Of a DNA stretch of 64,000 nt, positions 1 through 15,471 are shown piece by piece. The position numbers were made by a program, and so were the translations under genes. How positions within the stretch are numbered: position 1 is the first letter of the stretch; each line of letters opens with the position of its first letter. The notes beneath the pieces are model-generated. The model was not told the origin of the DNA, ran no database searches, and saw only the letters and a program-made list of their open reading frames with translations. This DNA is from Buttiauxella gaviniae ATCC 51604 (GTDB lineage Bacteria > Pseudomonadota > Gammaproteobacteria > Enterobacterales > Enterobacteriaceae), in assembly GCF_001654835.1 (NCBI RefSeq), contig NZ_LXEP01000044.1, positions 1 to 64,000 of the forward strand, given 5' to 3'.

Positions 1-1383
1 CCACGAGGTATGCAGCATGGCCTTTATCTGACCTGGTGTTAAGGTCGCTATCTGTTGAGCGGTCAGTCCTTCATATTCCGTTTTGCTCAAACCACTAATA
101 GTGGCATCAGAAAGCAGGGAAATATCTAACTTGCCAAACTGCTGAGAAGTTAATGCGTTCAGATGCGTTATAGCCGCAACCTGATCCGCCGTTAGCAGGG
201 AAAGCATGTCATTGCTAAAAGAGGACATTTGAGCGGCGGTAAAACCACTGGCTGCCGCAGTGGGGATCCAGTCAATATGTTGCAATGCATTCATTTGTTC
301 AGGGGTGAAGGTGGAAATCTGATGAGCGGTAAGATTAGCGTACTCAGTTACGGCCCATCCTCTGATCGCTGAAGCTGATATCCCCGATAAGTTTAATAAA
401 GCAAACTGTTCACTACTTAATGTACTGATACCCTCGACAGCATTAACCTGAGCGGCAGTTAGTGCTTTCAGATGCGCATTATCGAGATTATTAAGGTCAC
501 CAATAAAAGCGATCTGATCTGGCGTTAACGCCAGCAATGCCGCAGTACTCAGTTTATTTATCTTGGCTGATGTGACTTCTTCAGTATGGATACTCGCCAT
601 CTGTTCAGCCGTGAAACCTACCATTGAAGAAGCCTGAACCTCGTCAACGTGTTTCATGACCTTAACCTGGTCGATGCTTAAGGTAGAAATTTGGTGTGCG
701 GTGAGTCCGTTATATTGCACCGGGTTCATATTCGCGAAAAATGACGCGGGCAATTCAGAAATATTAAGTAGGCTAAACTGATTACTCGTCAACATGCTCA
801 GATCGGTAATCGCAGAAACTTGATTTGCCAATAAAGACGACAGGTGGCCATCATTGAGTTGGTGAAGATTTTCCGCAGATATAACCGCAATATGGTCGCG
901 ATTCAGCGCAGCTAAATCAATTAACTTTATCTGGTTGAGCTTGTTAATCGGAATGCCACTGAAGGCTTCCGTGGTAAGATTGTTCAGCCAGGCGGAAGAA
1001 TACCACTGGTAATTATCATTAATACCCGCCACCTGAGCAGCCGTTAACTGACCTAAATGTTCTTTATCAAGATTACAAAGGTTGTAGAAGGTCAAACGCG
1101 TCATTTGATCAGGCGTGATTGCTTTTGTCGCCGTACTATTGAGGTTATTGAGCCATTCCCCGGTGATGCTATAAAAATCAACGGCCAGTACTGGAATATG
1201 TTCAGCCGTAAACCCCGAAATCGCCTTGCCCGTCACCCAGTCTGGGTGTTTCATCTGCTGAATCTGTGGAACTGTCATCTGGCTGATAAAGTTGGCAGAG
1301 AGGGAAGCGTAATCGTCTTTCGTCCATGAACCAATGGCATTAAGGTCAGGTGTTGAGGCTACATTTTGATTCGAGTCGGGCAC
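1..1383 (-). CDS. Large helical-repeat protein with LTxxQ motifs, C-terminus beyond the window
   Basis: An uninterrupted frame of 461 codons runs off the left edge. The most likely start is GTG at 1383, preceded by AAAAGG at suitable spacing; the next in-frame stop lies about 60 bases further upstream and no ATG occurs between. The protein is built from short units with the pattern LTA-[HAQD]-Q-[IVM]-xx-[ILF], and larger modules that begin near a Y-x-x-L-[ST]-A motif, continue with IS-x-(T/S)-x-x-Q and H-x-DW, and then GFTAEQ. Module starts fall near 1311, 720, 345 and 80, so module length varies (roughly 90 to 200 residues). No signal peptide or enzyme motif is visible. It is probably an all-helical solenoid. 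I do not recognise the family; an interaction or surface role is only a guess. Confidence 0.75.
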   Translation of the reverse strand, partial: MPDSNQNVASTPDLNAIGSWTKDDYASLSANFISQMTVPQIQQMKHPDWVTGKAISGFTAEHIPVLAVDFYSITGEWLNNLNSTATKAITPDQMTRLTFYNLCNLDKEHLGQLTAAQVAGINDNYQWYSSAWLNNLTTEAFSGIPINKLNQIKLIDLAALNRDHIAVISAENLHQLNDGHLSSLLANQVSAITDLSMLTSNQFSLLNISELPASFFANMNPVQYNGLTAHQISTLSIDQVKVMKHVDEVQASSMVGFTAEQMASIHTEEVTSAKINKLSTAALLALTPDQIAFIGDLNNLDNAHLKALTAAQVNAVEGISTLSSEQFALLNLSGISASAIRGWAVTEYANLTAHQISTFTPEQMNALQHIDWIPTAAASGFTAAQMSSFSNDMLSLLTADQVAAITHLNALTSQQFGKLDISLLSDATISGLSKTEYEGLTAQQIATLTPGQIKAMLHTSW

Positions 1384-2028
1384 AGTTTTGCCTTTTGGTG
1401 GGATGAGTATTGGTTTTGCGTTAAATACAAAAGTGAATAGGATGCTAATTATTTATTTGACAGGAAATACATCCCTTTTTCGGTAAACATAAAGAGAGGT
1501 ATCCAGGTTAATATTATCAACCTATGAATTTACCGAAAGCTTTATTTTAGTACACTCTTTCACCTGAAACAGGAAATATAGACATTGCGAAATTACCGCG
1601 CACTTACAATTCGAAATAAATTCTTACTATTGCAAACATCTTTGTTTTTTTTATGATCAATGGCATGTTAAAAATGAGGCTGTGATTTATAAATGTTAAC
1701 GCCAATAAAGATAAGTGCATTGCAGTTGACAAAAAAATAACATTCAACAAGCAACCTCCATTAACCAAAATTACCCAATATTCACTCCGGCACCTATTTT
1801 TACATCGCTGGTCTGCTGTGATACTTAACCACGCATATTCTCTAAGATTTAGATAATTCGAGTCTTGGCCAACTTCTCTTTATATTGCTGTCTGAAAATA
1901 TCGAAACCTACCAGGAGGCATTTCAGGCTTCTTCAAAACTCGGCGACATACCAACATCAACCAGATACATATTTTTCACTACACCGGCGCGAACAGCAGC
2001 GTTTGGGATATGTATGGATGGAAATTCC
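1384..2028. other. AT-rich intergenic region without a supported gene
   Basis: This 645-base gap lies between the start of the repeat protein and the 3' end of the LysR gene. It is markedly AT-rich. Short open frames exist, but none has a ribosome binding site together with a convincing protein. It probably holds the promoter of the repeat-protein gene near 1400-1500; I cannot place it exactly. Confidence 0.5.
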
Positions 2029-2937
2029 TTATTCCCAAGGTGATCCTTGCTCCCAGCTTTCAATAAGCAGGTCAATAAAAGAGCGGATTCGTGGTGATAA
2101 GTGTCGTTTGCTGGGATAAATCACCCGAATAGGTTCCGGAGGAAAAGGATATTCCTCAAGAACAGGCACCAATCTTCCACTACGCAAATCCTCGCCTAGC
2201 AAATAGGTGGGTAAGTGGACGATTCCGAACCCAGAAATAGCCGATGCACGCATGGCTTCAGAACTGTCGAGGTTAAGCCTGCCAGGCCCTTCATAAACAA
2301 AAGTGCCTTCCGGGGTCGCAAACCGCCAGCTGCGTCTCTTTTCTGCACTCAGAAGAAAGATAGTGTCATGCCCGGTTAAGTCTGCGGGTGTTTCTGGAAC
2401 GCCCCGTGAGGATAAATACTCGGGTGATGCACAAGTGACAATGTGCTGCGAAGCAATTGTACGGGTAAGAATACGTGAGTCATCGCGAGGTTCACCGATG
2501 CGAATGGCAATATCAAAGCCTTCTTCAATAAGATCAACAAACCTGTCGCTAAAGGACACCTCCGCACGAAGTTCCGGCCACTTTTTCAGATAAACATCCA
2601 GAATGGGAAGGATATGGCGCTGCCCAAAAGAAAGCGGCGCACTCAGCCGGAGAGTCCCCGTTGGCTTACCCCTGCGCATGGCCATGGCGGCATCGACCTC
2701 TTCCAGGTCATCCAGTATCTGTCGGCAACGATCGAACATGACCCTCCCTTCATCGGTGAGACTCAGACTCCGTGTGGTACGGTTAAGGAGACGAACCCCC
2801 ATACGCGTTTCGAGCCTGACAATACTCTTGCCAATGGCAGAACGTGTGAGCCCAAGAGAACCCGCGGCGTGGGTGTAACTCCCGGCTTTTACAGCCGCGA
2901 CGAACGCGGCGATGTCACCAATGCTGTTGATCTCCAT
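2029..2937 (-). CDS. LysR-family transcriptional regulator
   Basis: This 302-residue protein has the normal length for LysR regulators. Residues 1-60 form the winged helix-turn-helix (FVAAVKAGSYTHAAGSLGLT, then SAIGKSIVRLE), and residues 90-295 the periplasmic-binding-protein-like effector domain. It belongs to the large subgroup that includes DhcR/AaeR-like proteins, usually tied to neighbouring redox or hydrolase genes. It is divergent from the esterase gene at 3059, with about 120 bases between the two starts, so it probably controls that gene and itself from this shared region. The effector is unknown. Confidence 0.9.
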   Translation of the reverse strand: MEINSIGDIAAFVAAVKAGSYTHAAGSLGLTRSAIGKSIVRLETRMGVRLLNRTTRSLSLTDEGRVMFDRCRQILDDLEEVDAAMAMRRGKPTGTLRLSAPLSFGQRHILPILDVYLKKWPELRAEVSFSDRFVDLIEEGFDIAIRIGEPRDDSRILTRTIASQHIVTCASPEYLSSRGVPETPADLTGHDTIFLLSAEKRRSWRFATPEGTFVYEGPGRLNLDSSEAMRASAISGFGIVHLPTYLLGEDLRSGRLVPVLEEYPFPPEPIRVIYPSKRHLSPRIRSFIDLLIESWEQGSPWE

Positions 2938-3058
2938 GCTTTATTTATCTCATCCAATACGGGCGATAAAGTACCCTAATATGGGAAGCACATTCCCCAA
3001 ATGTTTATATATTATAGATTCCTGTTCACTTATAACGCAAATGCAAACAGGAATGACA

Positions 3059-3988
3059 ATGCTGAATCAACAAACTAAGCAAGCCGTAAAAGAATGGTCT
3101 GAAAGTCTGGCCGGTCTGGGTCCAATCCTTACGGGTGAGGATACCGTAACGCCTATGAGTGAGGTGCGTGACGCCTACGCTCGGATGCTGGCTAAAAATC
3201 CCGCACCTGCCGGTGTCAGCTTTACTGAGGTTGATATGGGGGGCGTGCCGGGAACGCTGGTGACTCCTGACAACCTTGAAACAGATGCCATCGTGATGTA
3301 CATCCACGGCGGGGCTTACATTGTCGGCGAATCGTCGGGCTATCACGGTATTGGTGGCAACTACGCCAGCATGCTGGGCGCACGGGTATACATGCCGGAT
3401 TACCGTCTGGCGCCGGAGTATCCTTTCCCTACGCCCGTTACCGATACCGTTCGTGCGTATGAGTGGTTAATTGAACAGGGATTTGACGCCAGCAAAATCG
3501 TACTGGCAGGCGAGTCTGCGGGCGGAGCAATGGTGGTTACCGTTATGGTAGCTGCACGTAATAAAGGCCTGCCACTTCCAGCCGGCGGTGTTTCCATTTC
3601 CCCATGGGCCAACCTTGAGCACACGGGCGTCTCCATGACCAACCGGGAAGGTCTTGATCCTCTGAACACCAAGGCCGGTCTGGATTTCCTGGCACGTACC
3701 TTCCTGGGCGATGCTTTACCTAATCACCCAATGGCATCACCGGTGTTTGCCGATGTGACAGGTCTGCCGCCGGTGCTGGTTCAGATTGGAGAGAATGAAC
3801 TGATGCTGAGCGACGCGATGCGGCTCGCAACTCATCTGGGTGATAACCGGGTTCGCGTAAATCTGGAAGTCTGGCCGGGTATGTTCCACGCCTGGCATTT
3901 CTTCTCCACGCTGCAGCCAGAAGCGGTGCAGGCTCTTGAGAGCTCCGTCGCCTTTATCAAGCAAGCTCTGCGGGATGCATCTAAGTAA
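3059..3988 (+). CDS. Alpha/beta hydrolase of the HSL (acetyl esterase-like) family
   Basis: This is a 309-residue cytoplasmic carboxylester hydrolase. Motifs visible are the oxyanion HGG in YIHGGAYIVG, the nucleophile elbow GESAGG, an Asp in the DVTGLPPVLVQ region and the catalytic His in the WPGMFHAWHFF segment. These define the hormone-sensitive-lipase branch (alpha/beta hydrolase fold-3). The frame is open further upstream, but AGGA sits six bases before ATG 3059, and the length from there fits the family; ATG 3053 is an alternative. The gene diverges from the LysR regulator at 2029-2937, which is its likely controller. The natural substrate is unknown; short-chain esters are typical for the family. 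Confidence 0.9.
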   Translation: MLNQQTKQAVKEWSESLAGLGPILTGEDTVTPMSEVRDAYARMLAKNPAPAGVSFTEVDMGGVPGTLVTPDNLETDAIVMYIHGGAYIVGESSGYHGIGGNYASMLGARVYMPDYRLAPEYPFPTPVTDTVRAYEWLIEQGFDASKIVLAGESAGGAMVVTVMVAARNKGLPLPAGGVSISPWANLEHTGVSMTNREGLDPLNTKAGLDFLARTFLGDALPNHPMASPVFADVTGLPPVLVQIGENELMLSDAMRLATHLGDNRVRVNLEVWPGMFHAWHFFSTLQPEAVQALESSVAFIKQALRDASK

Positions 3989-4007
3989 TTATCAATGATA
4001 ATCGCTT

Positions 4008-4034
4008 AAAAAAGGGGCGCGTCTAATTGCGCCC
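4008..4034. terminator. Hairpin GGGCGC/GCGCCC with an A-run on its left
   Basis: A six-base-pair GC stem (4015-4020 with 4029-4034) follows six A residues on the + strand. On the - strand this reads stem then T-run, so it is a better terminator for leftward transcripts. It may also serve the esterase gene that ends at 3988. Confidence 0.5.
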
Positions 4035-4166
4035 ATCAGAAGTAAAAATGACGGATTGATAGAAACAACTTTCTTTATATCCCGATCCTACCTAACGGCG
4101 TCTGCAACTATTTTTGTATTAGTTACACCTGCTTTTAATCAATTAAAACACCGTGGCGTTAGCAAC

Positions 4167-4227
4167 GTCCGCTTCGGTACTTATCAGCCACAGGTTGATC
4201 TCTGTCAGCTATGAGCGAGGAATGGAC
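4167..4227. repeat. Intergenic repeat, diverged copy
   Basis: This 61-base element starts with GTCCGCTTC and ends with GTCAGCTATGAGCGAGGAA followed by TGGAC. Its right half is nearly identical to the copies at 14593 and 15298, while its left half has diverged. It lies in the 477-base gap between the esterase and the MarR-GNAT gene, in which I see no gene. Confidence 0.6.
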
Positions 4228-4464
4228 ATTGAGAAAACAACCATGCCCACTGTTATCAGTTGAAAATTTGGCTAAGTTCGTTGCGTTACCAAAAAGCCAT
4301 ATTCAGTGAATTGTACCGTGGCATTTGTCCCAAATATCCACATCATAAAGGATGGGAATTATAGAAATGCAGAATTATTGAATAAAACAAAGGGATTTTA
4401 CCGGATAAGGGCAATAAGTGCGGCTATCCGATAAATCCATAATATGAGTTAGGCTTTTATCATG

Positions 4465-5384
4465 TTATAGCTTTTTGAGCATGCAGATTCCGCAGCTATT
4501 ATGGCCTGTATCGCCTAGTCTTTTGGCGAGATGACGAAAGCCGAAAATTTCATAAAGACGAACGGCATCCTTCAGCTCGTCAAGCGTTTCGAGATAACAG
4601 GACTGATAACCCATGGCAGCAGCCTGAGTCATAATGAAGGAGATCATTCGTCTGCCCATCCCCATTCCTTTTACATCACTGCTGAAAAAAAGCTTCTGCA
4701 TTTCGCAAATGCCATCTTCACCAGCCAGCGGAGCGATACCCCCCCCCCAACAATTTTTCCCATGGACTCAACAACCCAGTATCTTGCTTCAGGCTTATTG
4801 TATGCCTCACTTAAATGGTCGAGTTCGGGATCGTGGAGGCTCACACCCTCCAGATGATCGATTTTATTCTCCCGAAAACTGTTGCGTATGATCTCTGCTA
4901 TAGCGGCATTATCTCTAGGCTCAATGGGCCGAAGGGTCATTCCTGCTTCACGTTGACGACGTGCGTTTCGAAGGCTACCGGAGAATTGCATGATAGTTTT
5001 AAGGAATTCCTGTACCTCCTGGTCTGAGGATGAGGCAAGAGCCTCCTCAGTAAACCTATCGGCATTTTCTTCCAAATATAAAAGCCGTTGCTTTCCTGAA
5101 TCGCTTAACCGAAATGTTGAAGCTCTGCCGTCCTGACCATCATATTCTCTCAGTAAATATCCTGCTTCAATCAGGGTGCGGAGTGTACGACTCATGCTCG
5201 CTTTCTCAACGCAGAGCTTAGTTGCCAATTCTGTTGCACCGGAAGGTTTACTATTCAGTTCAATCAAAATATGGCTCTGAAGGGGAGATAATTCAGTTCC
5301 GCTGCTTTTACGACTGAGCATACCCAGCTCTCGGACCATTTCACGTAATGCTGAACGAAACGGTCGTACTTCATTTTTTTTCAT
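4465..5384 (-). pseudogene. MarR-GNAT fusion (regulator plus N-acetyltransferase), out of frame at a run of ten G
   Basis: Residues 1-140 (from ATG 5384) are a MarR winged-helix domain (LSPLQSHILIELNSKPSGAT, then EKASMSRTLRTL). The next part is a GNAT acetyltransferase (TLRPIEPRDNAAIAEIIRNS). At plus-strand positions 4739-4748 there are ten C (ten G in the gene). With ten, the frame reads GGGVSLRWLVK and then runs on wrongly. With eight or eleven it would read GGGIAPLAGEDG and continue into the fragment containing VKGMGMGRRM and YEIFGFRH, the rest of the GNAT fold, ending at 4465. Thus one indel separates a complete gene of about 305 residues from a broken one. It may be phase variation, a decayed gene or a sequencing error. 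Start 5384 is preferred because the earlier ATG at 5420 lies inside the palindromic operator. Confidence 0.85.
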
Positions 5385-5415
5385 AAATCTTGCCTGCATT
5401 GAATGATAGAGGCTA

Positions 5416-5460
5416 ATCATACATAAACTAGTTAACAGTGTTAACTAGTTTATGTATGAT
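5416..5460. promoter_or_regulatory. Perfect 45-bp palindrome, probable MarR operator
   Basis: Two exact 22-base arms flank a single central G at 5438. The core is ACTAGTTAAC / GTTAACTAGT. It starts 32 bases upstream of the MarR-GNAT start (5384) and 31 bases before the small rightward ORF at 5491. MarR dimers bind symmetric sites of this sort, so autoregulation and control of a divergent transcript are likely (inference). Confidence 0.7.
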
Positions 5461-5490
5461 GATCGAACATTAGCAAACAGGCTACTCGTT

Positions 5491-5601
5491 ATGAATTTTT
5501 CAAAATGTAATGACAAGGTTCTTCGCAGGATCGTTTTAGTGACTACCGTTACAATGCTGTCAAGCTATGCGATGGTTCTGCTGTATCACTTTTTATCGTG
5601 A
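5491..5601 (+). CDS. Small ORF with one hydrophobic segment, possible remnant of a divergent membrane gene
   Basis: The 36-codon frame begins ATG 5491 and encodes a basic N-terminus (MNFSKCNDKVLRR) followed by about 22 mostly hydrophobic residues ending in LLYHFLS. MarR regulators often diverge from an efflux permease; this may be the first membrane segment of such a permease left after deletion, or a genuine small membrane protein. No strong ribosome binding site is visible. Confidence 0.3.
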   Translation: MNFSKCNDKVLRRIVLVTTVTMLSSYAMVLLYHFLS

Positions 5602-6154
5602 AACCCTGAATTATCTATAGGGGATATGTCGGTCTGATGATGCGCGAATTCATCAGCGCGATGAGAAAAAAAGGCAGGCAATCAATCCACCTCGCATCAT
5701 GTTGGGCCCAACAAGAAATTCGGCTACGCCTATATCAAGCTTTCTGAGTCAGAGCATGGCGGCATGAAATGATCATGATGCTTTAGCTTGGCATTCCTGC
5801 AGGCAGATTGGCCTGCTTTCTAAACGCATTATGTCCGCTGTTGGCACGCAGCAGCCGTTCTGACCAAAACTCGTCATAAGAAGGGAGTTATGCGCAAATT
5901 TTGTTGACGATGGTGAAGTGATTAGCAAACGGGTAGTCAAGTCACATGCAATTACGCACAGAATGCAGGTGAGTCGCTTAAGTTGTAGATATCGCCCCCC
6001 CAAGATTCCTGCCCGATTTTTATGGCCTGATATAGAGTAAGAAAGCTTATTAAATACAATAAAAATAAGTAGCTAAACGACCAAGAAGCTTCTCAGTCAA
6101 ATGATAGCATCATGGAACATGAAGTTCTGGAGGGGTGTGCTCGTGTGAAACATC
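5602..6154. other. Intergenic region with degenerate, unsupported reading frames
   Basis: No gene can be supported. Short protein-like stretches occur in different frames, for instance KKFGYAYIKLSESEHGG near 5712-5760 and FVDDGEVISKRVVKSHAIT near 5900-5960, which would fit decayed coding sequence. I cannot name the parent gene. Confidence 0.3.
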
Positions 6155-6334
6155 ATGACATTTGAACAGAAATATAGGTTGAGCAACCTGCGGACCGAAC
6201 AAGTCGCGGCATTTATTGAATCGAGCTTAACAACTACAGGAAGTATGGAAATTGTCGAATGCAAAAATCTGGAAAAACCACCATATACCTTGGACGCCTT
6301 CTCTCTCAAGGCGTTACAATTTTTCTACATTTAA
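6155..6334 (+). CDS. Hypothetical 59-residue protein
   Basis: ATG 6155 to TAA 6334 encodes a compact, normally composed protein (MTFEQKYRLSNLRTEQ at the start, LKALQFFYI at the end) with no membrane segment. An in-frame stop just upstream excludes a longer form in this frame. A GGAGGGG lies about 20 bases upstream, further than usual. It is followed by a hairpin terminator at 6412. The family is not recognised; it could be the surviving 3' end of a larger gene. Confidence 0.35.
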   Translation: MTFEQKYRLSNLRTEQVAAFIESSLTTTGSMEIVECKNLEKPPYTLDAFSLKALQFFYI

Positions 6335-6411
6335 ATCCTGCGTGGGTATTGCGTTACGATGAGATAAGTCATTAGTGCAGAAAAACCATCCCTACACCTT
6401 TTCATTCTGGA

Positions 6412-6439
6412 AAACTGGCCGTCACAAGCCAGTTTTTTT
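6412..6439. terminator. Hairpin terminator between converging transcripts
   Basis: The stem AAACTGGC / GCCAGTTT has eight pairs, a loop of eight bases and a run of seven T on the + strand, with an A-run on the left. It can stop transcripts from both directions, in particular the uptake operon that ends at 6444. Confidence 0.7.
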
Positions 6440-6443
6440 ATGT

Positions 6444-7673
6444 CTATTTTCGCATAGGCCGACAAATCACAACCATTGCTATCGCGCTACAGAACGGAAA
6501 AAATGCCAATTGTAGCCACGGGAAAATGGCCTTATAGGAAGGAGTCAACGCGTCGTCAAGTTGGTTGCCCAGAAGGAAATTTCCCGCCAGTACCGCACAT
6601 CCCCCAGCGGAGGCAAGCGCGCCATAGTGTGCGCCCAGCGTCGATTCGTTAGCGAACCACGGAATCAAATCTTTCACTGAAGGCACCAGCAGCATTTGCC
6701 CCAAGGTCAGTAACGTAACAAAACACACCGAAGGCAAAAGCCGTAGTGCGTTTTCTGGCGCAGGGGTGGCGGCAAACAGCGCGACGCTAAGAAATGAGAC
6801 AGAAATAAGCAGAAAACCCACGGGCAGGATGCGCACGGCACCGATGCGGCGAGCCAAACGTGCCAGTGGTAGTTGTAGGATAATAACCAGCAGCGATGCC
6901 AGCATAAACAACGGGCCAAGATCTTTCTCGCTACCACCGGCACGTTGGATTTCCACCGGCAGCGCAAAATATAACTGGTTATAGCTTAACAGCCAGGAGC
7001 CATAGGCAATAATAAAGGCGACAAACCGTAGATTATGGAATGTCGTCCACCACGGAAGGATGTGTAGTGTCTGTTTCCTGTCATGCGTAGGAGGGAGGGA
7101 GAAAAACAACACCACCAGTGCGACGACGAAGACACCCGCACCCGCCAGCACAACCTGACGAAAACCTAACCCTGTCAGCAATGCCCCCGCCACTGGCCCA
7201 AGTACGGCCCCCAGCTCTCCACAAACCGCAAACAACGCAAACCATTCCGCCCGGCTACGTTTCCCCCTTAATTCGCTTTGCGTTCCAGCCTTTGCCAGTA
7301 AAGCTTCGATTGATGGAGAAAACAGTGCACCACCGATGCCAGTAAGACAGGCGCCAATGATAATCGGATAGAGTGACTGCCCAAATGCCAGTAGCAGATA
7401 GCCCGCCACACGGACAATACAGCCGCTGAGGATAACGATACGTGCGCCGTAGCGATCAGACAAAGCGCCGCCAACAATAAACATGCCTTGCTGCGAAAAC
7501 GTTCGCAAACCTAATATCAGCCCGATGAGTCCGCCGGACAGCATCATATCGTCGCGTAAAAACATGGCCAGAAACGGTACCACCGCGTAAAAACCAATAT
7601 TAAAAACAAACTGGCTGCCCAGTAACACAGGCGGCCAGGGCTGAGTGACTGACCGCAGATTTGGCAAAGGCAT
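6444..7673 (-). CDS. MFS transporter, last gene of the iron/siderophore-type operon
   Basis: This 409-residue protein has about twelve hydrophobic segments and the MFS loop 2-3 motif (GGALSDRYGARIVIL). It resembles the DHA1/MdtH-like group. It starts 15 bases after the ABC ATPase stop and shares the Fur-box promoter at 10532. In iron loci such MFS proteins commonly export a siderophore (EntS) or help move it across the inner membrane, so a role in siderophore traffic is likely by context. Drug efflux is the alternative. No outer-membrane receptor or biosynthesis gene is present in the window. Confidence 0.8.
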   Translation of the reverse strand: MPLPNLRSVTQPWPPVLLGSQFVFNIGFYAVVPFLAMFLRDDMMLSGGLIGLILGLRTFSQQGMFIVGGALSDRYGARIVILSGCIVRVAGYLLLAFGQSLYPIIIGACLTGIGGALFSPSIEALLAKAGTQSELRGKRSRAEWFALFAVCGELGAVLGPVAGALLTGLGFRQVVLAGAGVFVVALVVLFFSLPPTHDRKQTLHILPWWTTFHNLRFVAFIIAYGSWLLSYNQLYFALPVEIQRAGGSEKDLGPLFMLASLLVIILQLPLARLARRIGAVRILPVGFLLISVSFLSVALFAATPAPENALRLLPSVCFVTLLTLGQMLLVPSVKDLIPWFANESTLGAHYGALASAGGCAVLAGNFLLGNQLDDALTPSYKAIFPWLQLAFFPFCSAIAMVVICRPMRK

Positions 7674-7688
7674 ACTAATGACCTGGTC

Positions 7689-8453
7689 TTAAGCGATGTA
7701 GTGGATATGTTTTTTTCCGTGGAAGGGAGAAATTTCAATCTTAGTCTCTACCCTGAACACATCCCAAAGCAGTGACTCTGTGAGGATCTCGTGCGGGCGA
7801 CCCGCGGTGACGATCTGCCCCTCTTGCATCACAATCAACGCGTCGCAGAACATGGAGGCGTGGTTGAGGTCATGAATAGCCACAATGCTGGTCACTGGCA
7901 GTTCGCTGACGAGTTTCATCAACTGTATCTGATGATGAATATCCAGATGGTTGGTGGGCTCATCAAGGAGGATCTCCGTCGGCGATTGTGCGAGAGCTCG
8001 TGCAATGTGAACACGCTGGCGCTCACCGCCCGATAAACTCTGCCACCCCTGTTCGCTTTTGCTAAGCATATCCACGCGCTGGAGCGCGGCGGTGACAGTA
8101 TCGTCATCTTGCGTGCTCCAGTTAGAGAACGGAGAGTGATGGGGAATACGCCCCAGCTTGACCACGTCGACAACGCGCATATTTGCCTCGGTCATACCGT
8201 GCTGCTCCACAAATGCGACCCGCCGTGCCAACTGTTTTTTGGCAATCCGGGCGATGTTTTGCCCATCCAGCGTGACAGCACCTGAGTTGGGGTGTCGTAA
8301 TCCTGCGAGGATACGCAGCAGTGATGATTTACCGCAGCCGTTAGGACCCAGTAGACCGACTGTTTCTCCGTTCGCAACGCTCAACGAGACGTTGTTGACG
8401 ATGGTTTTTTGACCCACCCTCCAGGTAATATTTTCAGCGGCGATACTCATCAT
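7689..8453 (-). CDS. ABC transporter ATPase, FecE/FepC/BtuD type
   Basis: This 254-residue ATPase has a Walker A GPNGCGKSS at residues 37-45, signature LSGGERQRV, Walker B EILLDEPTNHLD and the switch His in IVAIHDL. It energises import through the FecCD-type permease encoded just upstream. ATG 8453 overlaps the permease stop by four bases, so the two are translationally coupled. It is part of a Fur-controlled operon of binding protein, permease, ATPase and MFS protein. Confidence 0.92.
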   Translation of the reverse strand: MMSIAAENITWRVGQKTIVNNVSLSVANGETVGLLGPNGCGKSSLLRILAGLRHPNSGAVTLDGQNIARIAKKQLARRVAFVEQHGMTEANMRVVDVVKLGRIPHHSPFSNWSTQDDDTVTAALQRVDMLSKSEQGWQSLSGGERQRVHIARALAQSPTEILLDEPTNHLDIHHQIQLMKLVSELPVTSIVAIHDLNHASMFCDALIVMQEGQIVTAGRPHEILTESLLWDVFRVETKIEISPFHGKKHIHYIA

Positions 8454-9487
8454 TTATTCCTTGAGCGGTAGATAATAACGGCAAAGAACGGTACGCCAAC
8501 CAGTGCGGTGACCACGCCGACCGGAAGACTTTGCGGGGCGATTAATAAGCGCGAGGCTATATCGGCCAGCACCATCAAAATGGCGCCAGCCAATGCGCTG
8601 GTGATAAGCAACTTGCGATGCATCGGCCCAAAGAAGAAGCGCATGACATGCGGAACGACCAACCCCACAAAGCCGATGGAACCGGCCATGCTGACGATAG
8701 TGGCAGTGATCAATGCCGTGATGGTGAACAGGATTAAGCGAACCCAGGGAACGGCGATGCCCAAAGAGGCGGCCGCATCATCACCAAAAGTAAAAGCATC
8801 CAACGCACGAGAATAGTAAAGGCACACTGCAAGCCCTACCAACACGACGACCAGAACAAGTTGAAACTCAGGCCATCTCACGCCGCTGAAACTGCCCAAT
8901 AACCAGAACATTACGTCGCGCGCCTGTTGGGCGCTCGCGGATGTGCTGATGGTATAAGCGGTAATAGCGTTGAAGAGCTGTGACGCAGCAACACCCGCCA
9001 GAATGGTGCGTTCATTGCCGCCGCGCGCGCCATTGGTCAAAAAAGCAACAAAAACAAAGGCGGCAAATGCCCCCGCAAATGCTCCGGCAGATAGCGACAC
9101 CGCACCGGTTCCTATGCCCAATACGACCACGGAAACCGCGCCAGTTGAAGCGCCCGCAGAAACGCCGAGCACATAAGGTTCTGCCAGCGCATTCTTCAGC
9201 AAACTTTGCAGTACCGCACCGCAGATAGCCAACCCGGCACCGCAGCAGGCCGCAACAAGCGCACGGCTCAGGCGAAAATCCCAAATCACACTTTCGTGAA
9301 TGCGGCTCAGAGGCACCTCTGTCAGTCCGAGTTTATTGCTAATGGCGTAGAACACGGTTCGCAGCGGGATAGAAAGCTCACCCACGCTGACGCCAATTGC
9401 GATCACCAGGAATAACAACACCACTGAAAAAATACTCGACGCTCCTAGCAGAAACGTCTGTTTCATCGGCTGTGCCACTGCGGTCAT
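8450..9487 (-). CDS. FecCD-family ABC permease for iron-siderophore, heme or cobalamin
   Basis: A 345-residue inner-membrane protein with about nine to ten membrane segments. It carries family hallmarks: RLSRALVAACCGAGLAICGA near residue 70, PYVLGVSAGASTGA, and GSIGFVGLVVPHVMR at about residue 270, the coupling region that contacts the ATPase. A single permease gene means it acts as a homodimer, as in BtuC. Its start overlaps the stop of the binding-protein gene by four bases. Confidence 0.92.
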   Translation of the reverse strand: MTAVAQPMKQTFLLGASSIFSVVLLFLVIAIGVSVGELSIPLRTVFYAISNKLGLTEVPLSRIHESVIWDFRLSRALVAACCGAGLAICGAVLQSLLKNALAEPYVLGVSAGASTGAVSVVVLGIGTGAVSLSAGAFAGAFAAFVFVAFLTNGARGGNERTILAGVAASQLFNAITAYTISTSASAQQARDVMFWLLGSFSGVRWPEFQLVLVVVLVGLAVCLYYSRALDAFTFGDDAAASLGIAVPWVRLILFTITALITATIVSMAGSIGFVGLVVPHVMRFFFGPMHRKLLITSALAGAILMVLADIASRLLIAPQSLPVGVVTALVGVPFFAVIIYRSRNK

Positions 9488-10485
9488 TTATTGAGTCCCA
9501 GACTTTTGAGCTGTTCGCCAACTTGTTCAGCACCATAGATTGTGCGAATAGTTGGGTTCATCGCCTGGCCGTCCATCACGACTATGTGACCTTTTTTCAC
9601 CGCATCTAATTGACTAACAGCAGGATCGGCATTGAGGAATTTAATCTTTTCTTCCGCGTTATCAAGTGCCCAACGATTTCGGTCAAGGCTTGAAACAACA
9701 ATCACATCGGGATTCGCGGCAATGATGCTTTCCCAACCGACCGTAGGCCACTCTGTTTCTGAGGTGATGGCGTTATGGCCGCCCAACACATTCGCGATAA
9801 AACCAGAAGCGCTGTTCTTGCCGCCGACATAGGCGTCAGAGGAGGGGGAAGAGCTTGAGAACCAGAACACAAACGAAAGGTCTTTTTTGTTTTTTCCGAA
9901 CGTCTGGCGAAGATCTGCTTCGCGTTTTTTAAAATCGGTAATTAACGCCTGGCCGCGATCTTCGACATTGAAGATTTTCGCGAAGTCATCAATCTCTTTA
10001 TAAAGGAATGTCATGTCCCACAGTTTTTGGCGGCTACCGTACATATCGCCAATATCTTTTTTGGTTGCGCACATACCAGGTGACATATAGCTATTTACGC
10101 CAACGGTGGCGAGATCTTCGCGCTTGGCGACTTTACTTTCTGGGCCGAGCAGCAAAGGCAGTTGTGCGGGAACAAAATCAGGGTTTTGAGCAAGGATGGA
10201 TTCAAGCGTCGGTATCTCAACCGTCAGTAGTTTTATTTTTGCATTCTGTTGAGCGAGTTGCGGAAGAACTTTAGTCGGCCAAAACGCACTGGCAGCTATC
10301 TTATCCTGCAACCCTAATAGCAGCAGGATTTCGACGGTGTTTTGACCCAGAGCGACGACGTGCTCAGGGGCTTTGGTAAACGTCTCTTTATATCCACAAT
10401 TTTCAATCGTTAGAGGATACGTCGTCGCCAAAGCTGAACTAACCGAAGTGAGCACCATTCCTAACGCGCAGATGACCTTTTTCAT
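9484..10485 (-). CDS. Periplasmic substrate-binding protein, FecB/FepB/BtuF type
   Basis: The 333-residue precursor has a signal peptide (MKKVICALGMVLTSVSSALA, cleaved after ALA). The mature part fits the two-lobed PF01497 fold, with the family patterns VVALGQNTVEILLLLGL in the N-lobe and GWESIIAANPDVIVV in the C-lobe. It delivers an iron-siderophore or related chelate to the permease encoded downstream. It is the first gene of the operon and begins 47 bases from a good Fur box. The exact ligand cannot be deduced. Confidence 0.9.
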   Translation of the reverse strand: MKKVICALGMVLTSVSSALATTYPLTIENCGYKETFTKAPEHVVALGQNTVEILLLLGLQDKIAASAFWPTKVLPQLAQQNAKIKLLTVEIPTLESILAQNPDFVPAQLPLLLGPESKVAKREDLATVGVNSYMSPGMCATKKDIGDMYGSRQKLWDMTFLYKEIDDFAKIFNVEDRGQALITDFKKREADLRQTFGKNKKDLSFVFWFSSSSPSSDAYVGGKNSASGFIANVLGGHNAITSETEWPTVGWESIIAANPDVIVVSSLDRNRWALDNAEEKIKFLNADPAVSQLDAVKKGHIVVMDGQAMNPTIRTIYGAEQVGEQLKSLGLNK

Positions 10486-10531
10486 TTAACATTACTCTTT
10501 AACTGAGTGAATTTCGAATGCGAAAACGCAA

Positions 10532-10546
10532 TGATAATGAAAATCA
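10532..10546 (-). promoter_or_regulatory. Fur box upstream of the FecBCDE-type operon
   Basis: TGATAAT-G-AAAATCA matches the 7-1-7 Fur consensus (TGATAATnATTATCA) in 13 of 14 arm positions. It lies 47-61 bases before the binding-protein start, so iron repression is expected. Confidence 0.75.
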
Positions 10547-10558
10547 TTTATTAAGCGA

Positions 10559-10947
10559 TCAAAATCTACGGTTTACCTGTGGAAACATGTCTTCAATACG
10601 GGAGTATGGTTTCCGGGTGGTATTAAATTCCCGCGCAATGGCGCTGATATTGATCCCAGTGTTAATCCGTGCAATTACCGTAATTTGCTGTTCATCATTC
10701 AGTACTGAAGGACACCCAAACCGTTTTCCGGCTGCTTTTGCTCGCGTGATACCAGAGTGCGTACGCTCAAGCTGCAAATCTCTTTCAAATTCCGTCACAG
10801 CAGAGAGGACCTGCATGGTCATTTTCCTGTCGGGCTGGTCAGATCCACCCCGCCCAGGGCTAGGCAATGAACGCGAATATCTGAAGCAGCCAGTTGTTCC
10901 ACAGTTTTTCTGATATCCATCGCAATACGTCCCAGACGGTAAGGTAT
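10559..10947 (-). pseudogene. Serine resolvase remnant (Tn3-type), truncated and frameshifted
   Basis: Two frames together read as the C-terminal two-thirds of a serine recombinase: [20 protein letters not shown] with [12 protein letters not shown] in one, then [20 protein letters not shown] and a helix-turn-helix tail ([15 protein letters not shown]) in the other. A single missing base near 10818 (GGAAAATGACC where GGAAAGATGACC is expected) separates them. The catalytic Ser-containing N-terminus is absent; homology stops abruptly near 10947, exactly where a DsbC-like fragment begins on the other strand. This is the scar of a transposon. Confidence 0.8.
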
Positions 10948-11229
10948 CGCAACGGTATTTACCATATCGGGAATATCGAAGGGGCGCTTACGCTGGATGA
11001 TATTTCTCAGGCTACCCGGGCAGCTTTGGGTAAAAAACCGTTCCCGGAGGGCGATCAGATGGCCGCAATTGCGCGAAATGATGAACTGGCCCGCACGCTG
11101 GGTCTGACCGGGACACCGGGTCTTATCGTGATGCCGGTCAGACAGGCCACGCCGAAAAACATCACGGTGTTTCCCGGCACAGCCACGGTCGAACAACTGA
11201 AAGCCGCCATCGATAAAGCCCGACAGTAA
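10948..11229 (+). pseudogene. C-terminal fragment of a DsbC/DsbG/ScsC-like thiol-disulfide protein
   Basis: The frame contains [14 protein letters not shown] followed by [12 protein letters not shown] and the cis-Pro loop of a thioredoxin fold ([11 protein letters not shown]), ending KAAIDKARQ. This is the C-terminal part of a disulfide isomerase-like protein. The signal peptide, dimerisation part and CxxC active site are missing. An upstream ATG at 10894 only extends through antisense resolvase sequence. The protein is probably not functional. Confidence 0.65.
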
Positions 11230-11681
11230 AATCTGAAAGGAGCGAAGGTGCAAAATGAGACATTTAGATATTCTAGAAGCCTAACCCCGGACAGGATTAA
11301 TCCTCCTCCTGAAAGGCCTGTAAAAATGAGTATTCTAAACTGGCGAAAAATGTAATTTCAGGTAGGAGATGTTCCAGTGAAATAGATAAAAATAATGTAG
11401 GTTATAGATTACTTCCAGGGTTGTTTTGCTTTATCAGTGGCAACGCTTATAACCCTATCAGCATTATTATATTTCCATAACGTCTCATGTCATGCCCTTG
11501 AGGATAAGACCGTGATGATTATGGCTGTACGCCATTTCCGGGAAAACGGTTGTCCATAAATGTACTTTTCAGCCTGATAGGATATGTCTCTATATACACA
11601 ATAAAAAATTTATCGGCGTCATTTACTTCTTTGGTAATCCATACTTATTATGTGGTTATGTTTATAACTATTGGAAATAAC
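11230..11681. other. Intergenic region upstream of the Exc2-like lipoprotein
   Basis: About 450 bases without a supported gene. A nine-codon frame (ATG near 11256) and other scraps are too short to call. The lipoprotein promoter is probably in the AT-rich part around 11560-11670. Confidence 0.4.
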
Positions 11682-12092
11682 ATGCGCTTATTAAAACAGC
11701 TTTTGCCTGTCATCATTACGTCATTGTTGTTAAATGCCTGCAGCAGTCAGCAAACTAGTGTAGACAAAAATGCCCGTCATGCTGTCAGTCGCGTGGCCAA
11801 AATTCATTTTGATCCCAATTCCCGACTACAAACTGCGGACAGCATCAAGGTCATGAAGCCCCTGTTGCAGCAGTTCTATGACCAGGGGAAAAAAGACCAC
11901 TCCGATGGACTGACGCTTGCTCAGGCACGTCAGAGGGCGGAGAATTTTAAATGCCCAGGAGTAATAACGAGCTCCGAAAAAACGACAATTCTGGGGCAAA
12001 CATTTGAGGCAGATGAGCCAGCAAAACAAAGCCAGATAGTTCTCGACACTGCTATTACCACATACTGGGATGGATATAACGGACGTCCCTGA
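11682..12092 (+). CDS. Small lipoprotein, Exc2 (entry-exclusion) family-like
   Basis: From ATG 11682 the protein has 136 residues with a lipoprotein signal (MRLLKQLLPVIITSLLLNAC; lipobox L-N-A-C, modified Cys at 20). The mature part has a helical stretch (LLQQFYDQGKKDHSDGLTLA) and a single further Cys. I recognise it as similar to Exc2-type lipoproteins first described as entry-exclusion proteins of ColE1-type plasmids and found on enterobacterial chromosomes. The open frame extends 44 codons upstream, but the signal peptide fixes the start. Its position next to transposon scars supports plasmid origin (inference). Confidence 0.65.
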   Translation: MRLLKQLLPVIITSLLLNACSSQQTSVDKNARHAVSRVAKIHFDPNSRLQTADSIKVMKPLLQQFYDQGKKDHSDGLTLAQARQRAENFKCPGVITSSEKTTILGQTFEADEPAKQSQIVLDTAITTYWDGYNGRP

Positions 12093-13060: not shown

Positions 13061-13633
13061 TCTGCTCAACAAGATAATTATAATGCTGTTGTAATTTCAG
13101 CAATAACTGGCTGAGATAAAGTGGCAACCTACTGTCCTCAAGAATGGTACCCAGTCGGCTAAAAATGCTGATTCTCGTGGAACGCTGATGCCAAATCCCA
13201 ACAGAAAAGCATGCATCTGATTGGTTGTTTTTACCTTATCCTGAACCAGGGGTTCACGGACACGATGCACAGCCCGCATTGCCTGCTGAGATTCCGTTCT
13301 GGGTTGCACAAAACGCATAGACGGACGCGATGCAGCTTCACAAATAGCTTCGGCGTCGACAAAGTCGTTTTTGTTACTTTTAACGAATGGACGGACCAAT
13401 TGTGGTGATTTCAGCTTTGGAAAATTCCCCAACTCTTCCAACTTGCGTGCCATAAAGTGAGAGCCTCCGCAGGCTTCCATTGCGATGGTTGTAGGGGGGC
13501 ATGTCGCCAAAAATTCGATTAACTTTGGCCGGATAATTTTTTTACAGTAAACCGCCTTCCCGCGACGATCCTGGCAATGAATATGGAAAGAGTTTTTAAC
13601 CAGATCGATACCAATGAGCGCAATATTTTCCAT
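13058..13633 (-). pseudogene. IS110-family transposase, frameshifted and truncated
   Basis: The N-terminal part from ATG 13633 carries the DEDD RuvC-like fold of IS110 transposases (IGIDLVKNSFHIHCQD, AMEACGGSHFMARKL, KNDFVDAEAICEA). After FGISVPRES (near 13165) the frame shifts; the correct continuation (SRLGTILEDSRLPLYLSQLL, then QQHYNYLVEQI) is in another frame, and homology ends at about 13058. The C-terminal transposase domain with its conserved Ser is missing, so it is inactive. Confidence 0.85.
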
Positions 13634-14462: not shown

Positions 14463-14592
14463 CTTGTTGATTTAAAATCTTTCAGACCAAACGTACCTGA
14501 CTGATGTAGTTGTTCTGGGCGAAAAATATGAACAAGTGTAGTTGAATGCGGTTATGGTCAGCCTCAGAAGTGATGCTTTGAAAGTAGATAAC

Positions 14593-14655
14593 GTCCGCTC
14601 CTGGCACGAAGCCGCCTGAGGTTAGAACTCAGTCAGCTATGAGCGAGGAACGGAC
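14593..14655. repeat. 63-bp intergenic repeat, complete copy
   Basis: The element begins GTCCGCTCCT and ends AGGAACGGAC, which are inverted repeats of each other with one mismatch. The interior includes CACGAAGCCGCC and GGTTAGAACTCAG. It is nearly identical to the copy at 15298 and in the same orientation. It lies just downstream of the PLD nuclease stop. Confidence 0.75.
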
Positions 14656-15204: not shown

Positions 15205-15297
15205 GGGGATAGTTCTCAGTGAGTATTCGATACGTCTCAGGATTTCTCAGAGTGGATCTGTTGCTTCAGTGATGAGGACATCAATCATACTCTCAAC

Positions 15298-15361
15298 GTC
15301 CGCTCCTTGCACGAAGCCGCCTAGAGGTTAGAACTCAGACAGCTATGAGCGAGGAACGGAC
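15298..15361. repeat. 64-bp intergenic repeat, complete copy
   Basis: Same element as at 14593 with only a few changes, same orientation, terminal inverted repeats GTCCGCTCCT and AGGAACGGAC. It lies 94 bases upstream of the PLD nuclease start. Confidence 0.75.
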
Positions 15362-15471
15362 TTTCCTCTTCAAGATCGTCCACTTCACAGTAGACAAGCT
15401 GGCTTTATCCAGCCTGTCTTAAAACGGTAGGTAGATGTTGCGACCAGCATTAAGGCTAACTGACTGAAAAG

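Follow-up and report, generated by a model that had tools for sequence, protein, structure and literature searches.

A ten-guanine run breaks the frame of a MarR-GNAT fusion gene in Buttiauxella gaviniae, plausibly as an incidental slippage allele

In Buttiauxella gaviniae ATCC 51604, a run of ten G interrupts a gene that joins a MarR-type regulator to a GNAT acetyltransferase, and the explanation that we consider best, with a probability of roughly one half (0.52), is that this is an incidental slippage allele. The gene lies in a 64,000-nucleotide stretch of DNA analysed here at full length (positions 1 to 64,000 of contig NZ_LXEP01000044.1, hereafter the window), where the run reads as C10 on the forward strand at 4739-4748, that is, as ten G on the coding (minus) strand. 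It is the single G or C run of at least eight in the window. The three overlapping G8 matches found there compare with a mean of 1.39 in dinucleotide shuffles of the window, 19 of 100 of which contain three or more, so that a run of this class is by itself unremarkable. As the sequence and the comparison with homologues indicate, the run lies over the codons of a GGxG glycine motif.

That the ten-G run splits a MarR-acetyltransferase fusion had been stated in the preliminary description of this DNA and is confirmed here. The upstream part of the gene (4671-5420, minus strand), including an off-frame tail past the run, encodes 249 amino acids from the ATG at 5420; counted from this codon, the frame is lost after residue 227 and the product stops at residue 249, about 22 residues further on. 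The rest of the GNAT half is a separate 78-aa ORF in another frame (4465-4701, minus strand), whose homology to the intact relative reaches up to the run. Residues 44-100 of the window product match the MarR profile (PF01047, 1.5e-8), placing it among the MarR winged-helix regulators, and the 4465-4701 fragment matches positions 65-116 of Acetyltransf_1 (3.3e-6). The C-terminal GNAT domain is thus outside the MarR frame in the window copy, where the run breaks it, whereas it is intact in Buttiauxella brennerae ATCC 51605, a representative of a sister species (PF00583, 2.4e-12). The frame of the window gene is set by a homopolymer inside its coding sequence, as is characteristic of contingency loci.

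The consequences of the break can be read from a structural model of the intact B. brennerae protein (mean pLDDT 83.0, pTM 0.67), whose top listed Foldseek matches are acetyltransferases (E value of the first, 4.1e-9), in agreement with a GNAT fold. In this model, the glycine motif (residues 225-228) is located within strand 222-231, the third strand of the acetyltransferase part, and the break falls past the entire MarR part. The G10 break thus cuts inside the predicted third GNAT strand, and strand 238-241, helix 255-269 and all later parts would be lost. The sequence KGMGMGRR, which we take to be the acetyl-CoA loop of GNAT enzymes, also falls after the break.

The gene is contained in a block (4205-5852) that is shared with B. 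brennerae, where it occupies a different chromosomal position. The two copies, one per species, are 99.03% identical over 1,649 columns, with 15 mismatches and one gap, and this sole gap is the run, which has a length of 10 in the window and 11 in B. brennerae; with G11, the B. brennerae frame is open for 326 codons from stop to stop. Before the run, four substitutions are found in 672 bases, two of which change an amino acid, and after it a single one, synonymous, in 274 bases. Old pseudogene decay of the window copy was considered and is rejected on these counts, with five substitutions in the whole gene relative to the intact copy and only the synonymous one past the run. The earlier view that both halves are well kept, which argues against old decay, accordingly holds, although five substitutions are too few for a sequence-based test of constraint on the downstream half. 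Apart from the block, no match longer than 150 bases was found between the window and the 40 kb compared of that B. brennerae contig, and the adjoining stretch 6448-10569 matches a different B. brennerae contig at 90.08%. Because the block is 99.03% identical at another position while the neighbouring stretch reaches only 90%, we infer that it probably moved laterally in the recent past. At the DNA level, the MarR-GNAT gene is matched in two of the 12 Buttiauxella genomes, the window's own included. No mobile element was recognised within the block, and no inverted repeats were found at its left edge or in the look-alikes of that edge.

The behaviour of the motif across the family was assessed in 54 full-length fusion loci besides the window, with identities of 27.9% to 100%, where full length means an alignment beginning at residue 60 or before and extending to residue 295 or beyond. 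These loci are the best hits of searches and no random sample: they derive from the best 30 of each of two longer match lists, six more loci and three plasmid records. Loci that showed the window, B. brennerae, G014 or G035 a second time were left out together with two flank loci (in all L001-L005, L040-L042, L082, L092, L101 and L112-L114), as were loci shorter than 1,200 bases and hits missing the motif; ten more loci failed the full-length rule, among them the broken L039. The frame is open across the motif in all 54 loci. The longest G-run in the motif is 2 in 37 of them, 3 in three, 4 in four, 5 in five, 6 in three and 7 in one; the one remaining locus is that of B. brennerae, with 11. 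A run of at least eight is therefore seen in one of 54 homologues, and the tract is not conserved in the family. Since 53 of the 54 have no long run and a fixed frame, the MarR-GNAT family as a whole appears to use no tract, and the proposal of the preliminary description that the locus switches its acetyltransferase half finds no support in these relatives. Its expectation of an intact 305-residue protein at 8 or 11 G stands in part: such a protein has 306 residues from the ATG at 5384, and G11 is open in B. brennerae. When related genomes were checked for lengths of 8 to 11, as had been suggested, 10 and 11 were found in the near-identical copies and 9 in L039, but 8 in none of the 64 relatives tabulated.

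Glycines 225, 226 and 228 are invariant in all 14 closer relatives aligned (at least 41% identity), and in these relatives the motif site is consequently G-rich by necessity. Four distant homologues of 25.7-28.4% identity (L023, L024, L031 and L032) do without the GGxG motif, which limits the necessity argument to the closer relatives. In the B. brennerae gene, only four of 26 glycine codons are GGG, and three of those four are inside the run, a clustering that may point to selection or to a run lengthened by slippage. L039, from Candidatus Symbiopectobacterium endolongispinus, consists of degraded, partly repeated gene pieces (6001-7348) with in-frame stops and losses besides a G9 at the same motif codons; in L036, a copy from a related Symbiopectobacterium, the gene is intact and the run is absent.

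A pattern requiring at least eight G and then [IV]AP-like codons was matched in 17 of 394 genomes of the order and 16 of 392 of the family, the two samples overlapping. Among the 35 loci fetched with this pattern, which omit one match place in G060, three encode a MarR-GNAT protein, and all three come from the window genome and B. brennerae. No copy of the gene was detected in E. coli by megablast or distant blastn, and megablast found no close copy on plasmids; a search at the protein level matched 116 plasmid records, of which three were opened, and the best match reaches 74.0%. A literature search combining MarR with poly-G, phase variation or GNAT returned nothing usable on the MarR-GNAT fusion family.

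Long G-runs are common in the genus. Runs of at least nine are present in 11 of 12 Buttiauxella genomes, and the context of all 31 distinct ones was inspected. Twelve are G9 runs located at least 20 codons inside open ORFs of at least 250 codons, so that an in-frame G9 within a gene is not unusual in Buttiauxella; three of the twelve belong to neighbouring look-alike ORFs of a single genome (G002; L081, L091 and L099). These three G9 runs follow each other about 755 bases apart on contig C20 of that genome, at the matching place in the look-alike ORFs of 255-260 codons. Runs of at least ten number six in the 12 genomes, namely those of the window and B. brennerae, a G13 at a contig end and three (L107, L108 and L109) in apparently non-coding ORFs of 82-95 codons. 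Other frame-deciding runs are possible among shorter Buttiauxella ORFs. The window genome (5,068,083 bases in 133 contigs) has five distinct runs of at least nine. One of its G9 runs (L102) is within an open frame, presumably that of a NIF3-like ORF, and another (L105) is in a frame open up to the contig end, which we recognise as phage-tail-like. The G13 (L103) occupies positions 163349-163361 of contig C32, exactly at the contig end, and likely marks a sequencing limit.

If the allele arose by incidental slippage, the GGxG motif of the Buttiauxella copy would have come to be encoded by GGG codons in a row, a tract of sufficient length for slipping, and replication slippage would then have produced the difference between 10 and 11, taken here as real. 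At 11, as in B. brennerae, the whole fusion would be made; at 10, as in the window genome, the frame would shift and the GNAT core would be gone from the third strand on. The truncated protein would have lost acetyltransferase activity and its MarR function may or may not persist, although the MarR half is presumably still stably made from the broken allele; in principle, the slip could reverse. Chance is favoured because the motif has to encode glycines that the closer relatives conserve, none of the other homologues counted has a long run, and the degraded L039 grew a run of its own. A slip is further suggested by the alignment of the block, in which the one indel falls at the run, against 15 substitutions elsewhere. 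Nevertheless, the allele could also owe its length to an assembly or sequencing error, the true run being in frame and the gene intact in the window strain, which we rank second, although as less likely than not. The genome is a draft, its G13 at a contig end resembles the 'G's end' sequencing limit reported in PMC9187656, the same paper cautions against errors in the G-tract lengths of databases, and the 99%-identical B. brennerae copy is intact. Against such an error, the G9 runs of L102 and L105 in the same assembly sit in open frames, and 5,452 aligned ORF bases of the window show no frameshifting indel relative to B. brennerae other than the run, bar three small gaps, all in one 674-base stretch of 67% identity, which we read as alignment noise.

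Two lengths in two near-identical copies are also what is expected of a phase-variable locus, which leaves a switch open. Slippage would in that case turn the GNAT half on and off within the population, and the MarR half would be produced at all times; the break indeed follows the whole MarR part in the model, and of the six runs of at least ten in the genus, those of the window and B. brennerae alone are in a recognised gene. We nonetheless regard an evolved switch as unlikely, given that no run longer than 7 is found in 53 of 54 homologues and that the gene has no DNA-level match in 10 of 12 Buttiauxella genomes; the comparison across the family speaks against a switch that is maintained, whereas the switch mechanism itself would, judging from the sequence, be possible. 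It is very improbable that ribosomal or transcriptional slippage at the run yields some full-length fusion from G10, and hence two products. The run is a slippery stretch and one frame past it is open to the natural end, but the predicted downstream RNA structure is no more than mildly stable (z -1.65, with 11 of 200 shuffles folding at least as well) and in homologues that have no run the fusion is made without such slippage.

The incidental allele, which we continue to prefer, can be set beside several known systems. The proteins annotated by NCBI as 'bifunctional helix-turn-helix transcriptional regulator/GNAT family N-acetyltransferase' have the same domain order as the window fusion and a similar length, and plasmid-encoded relatives from Pantoea (74.0%) and Klebsiella pneumoniae (63.9%) bear this product name. 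In the three opened plasmid copies (of 116 matching), the motif runs are 2, 5 and 7 and the frames are open, whereas the window copy is frame-broken with a G-run. In Yersinia pestis, ureD is reportedly silenced or restored by a single G (Sebbane et al. 2001), the parallel being that of an Enterobacterales gene silenced by one G. The setting in ureD is reportedly a poly-G tract. However, the ureD change is reportedly species-wide in Y. pestis (PMC9248902), whereas here it concerns one genome and a near-identical copy is intact in a sister species. The sortase-dependent pili of Bifidobacterium breve likewise have an intragenic G-tract, the length of which decides expression (ON/OFF) (PMC9187656); that system concerns pilus genes with equivalents in various members of the genus, a measured spread of lengths and enrichment in vivo. 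The window case differs in being a regulator-enzyme fusion in two genomes, known from assembled sequence alone. In Mycobacterium tuberculosis, frameshift indels silence genes reversibly and follow low-complexity sequence, as shown for 5,977 isolates (PMC8339072). The indel reported here is likewise a frameshift at low-complexity sequence, but each species is represented by a single genome. Finally, NadR of Neisseria meningitidis, a MarR-family repressor acting at the phase-variable nadA promoter, also ties a MarR-type regulator to phase variation, but the variable repeat is there in the regulated promoter and here inside the regulator's own gene (PMC2791445).

If the run does switch, it would make a regulator-enzyme fusion of an environmental enterobacterium a poly-G contingency locus, altering the enzyme fused to a regulator and no surface structure. 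More likely, the case illustrates how chance gene breakage can follow from the slippery G-runs that conserved glycine motifs leave behind, and it calls for caution in reading G-run lengths in draft genomes.

The start of the gene carries a feature that may be more informative than the G-run. A perfect inverted repeat with arms of 22 nt and a 1-nt centre (5416-5460) contains on each strand a sigma-70-like pair, TTAACA-17-TATGAT. Two such pairs in the 401-base region do not exceed the shuffle expectation (mean 1.4, sd 1.4), so that position and symmetry are what speak for a promoter. Were the gene-side pair to act as one, transcription would begin downstream of the ATG at 5420, and the ATG at 5384 (or 5399) would be the likelier start; of 5384 and 5420, we favour the former. 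The palindrome core, TTAAC-N3-GTTAA, searched for with a spacer of one to three bases, is present in 12 of 16 loci examined, several of which have different neighbouring genes, and was not found in the other four (L006, L010, L012 and L014). In a scan of the loci collected, the core appeared only beside relatives of at least 53% identity. Promoter-like pairs accompany the core in 11 of the 16 loci, on both strands in five, as counted with a permissive pattern and without comparison to shuffles. Its location at the start of a regulator gene and its retention among relatives are those of an operator, and the palindrome is likely a MarR operator; shared as it is, it offers a concrete candidate binding site for the MarR-GNAT regulator family. 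No terminator-like site was found in 5300-5700, no tRNA in the window and no known RNA at gathering score in 1-12000.

On the other side of the palindrome, and reading away from it, a small ORF of 36 aa (5491-5601, plus strand) is divergent from the MarR-GNAT gene. It appears hydrophobic by eye and, from its letters, could be read as a membrane peptide, and it has no Pfam match. L036 has a relative in the corresponding position, 53% identical over 32 residues (E 1.3e-6 in a local search), and weaker look-alikes are seen at the same place in L007-L009 (E 1.6-3.1) and, by eye, in L125; none was seen in L035, L037, L038 or L124. Most economically, a MarR operator would govern expression of its own regulator gene and, in some genomes, of the small peptide as well. 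A fuller scenario is decidedly unlikely, in which slippage uncouples the acetyltransferase from the MarR repressor, so that cells at one tract length would make repressor and enzyme and those at other lengths the repressor by itself, with a symmetric, self-controlled operator driving a small membrane peptide too and the whole carried on a block moving between species.

Adjacent genes vary among the relatives. A TacA-like antitoxin with a GNAT partner adjoins the MarR-GNAT gene in B. brennerae (L034:4722-5590) and on a Klebsiella pneumoniae plasmid (L125:2615-3351); the ORF list shows no evident pair of this kind next to the window gene. The window region looks like a mosaic with mobile pieces. 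It includes a resolvase fragment at 10559-10867 and a transposase-like fragment at 13097-13633, the latter presumably IS110-like. The sequence at the left edge of the block (4163-4231) recurs on the same contig at about 77-80% identity at 14590-14655 and 15294-15364. Further matches of 86% are located on contig C51 (over 36 bases) and in B. brennerae contig C18.
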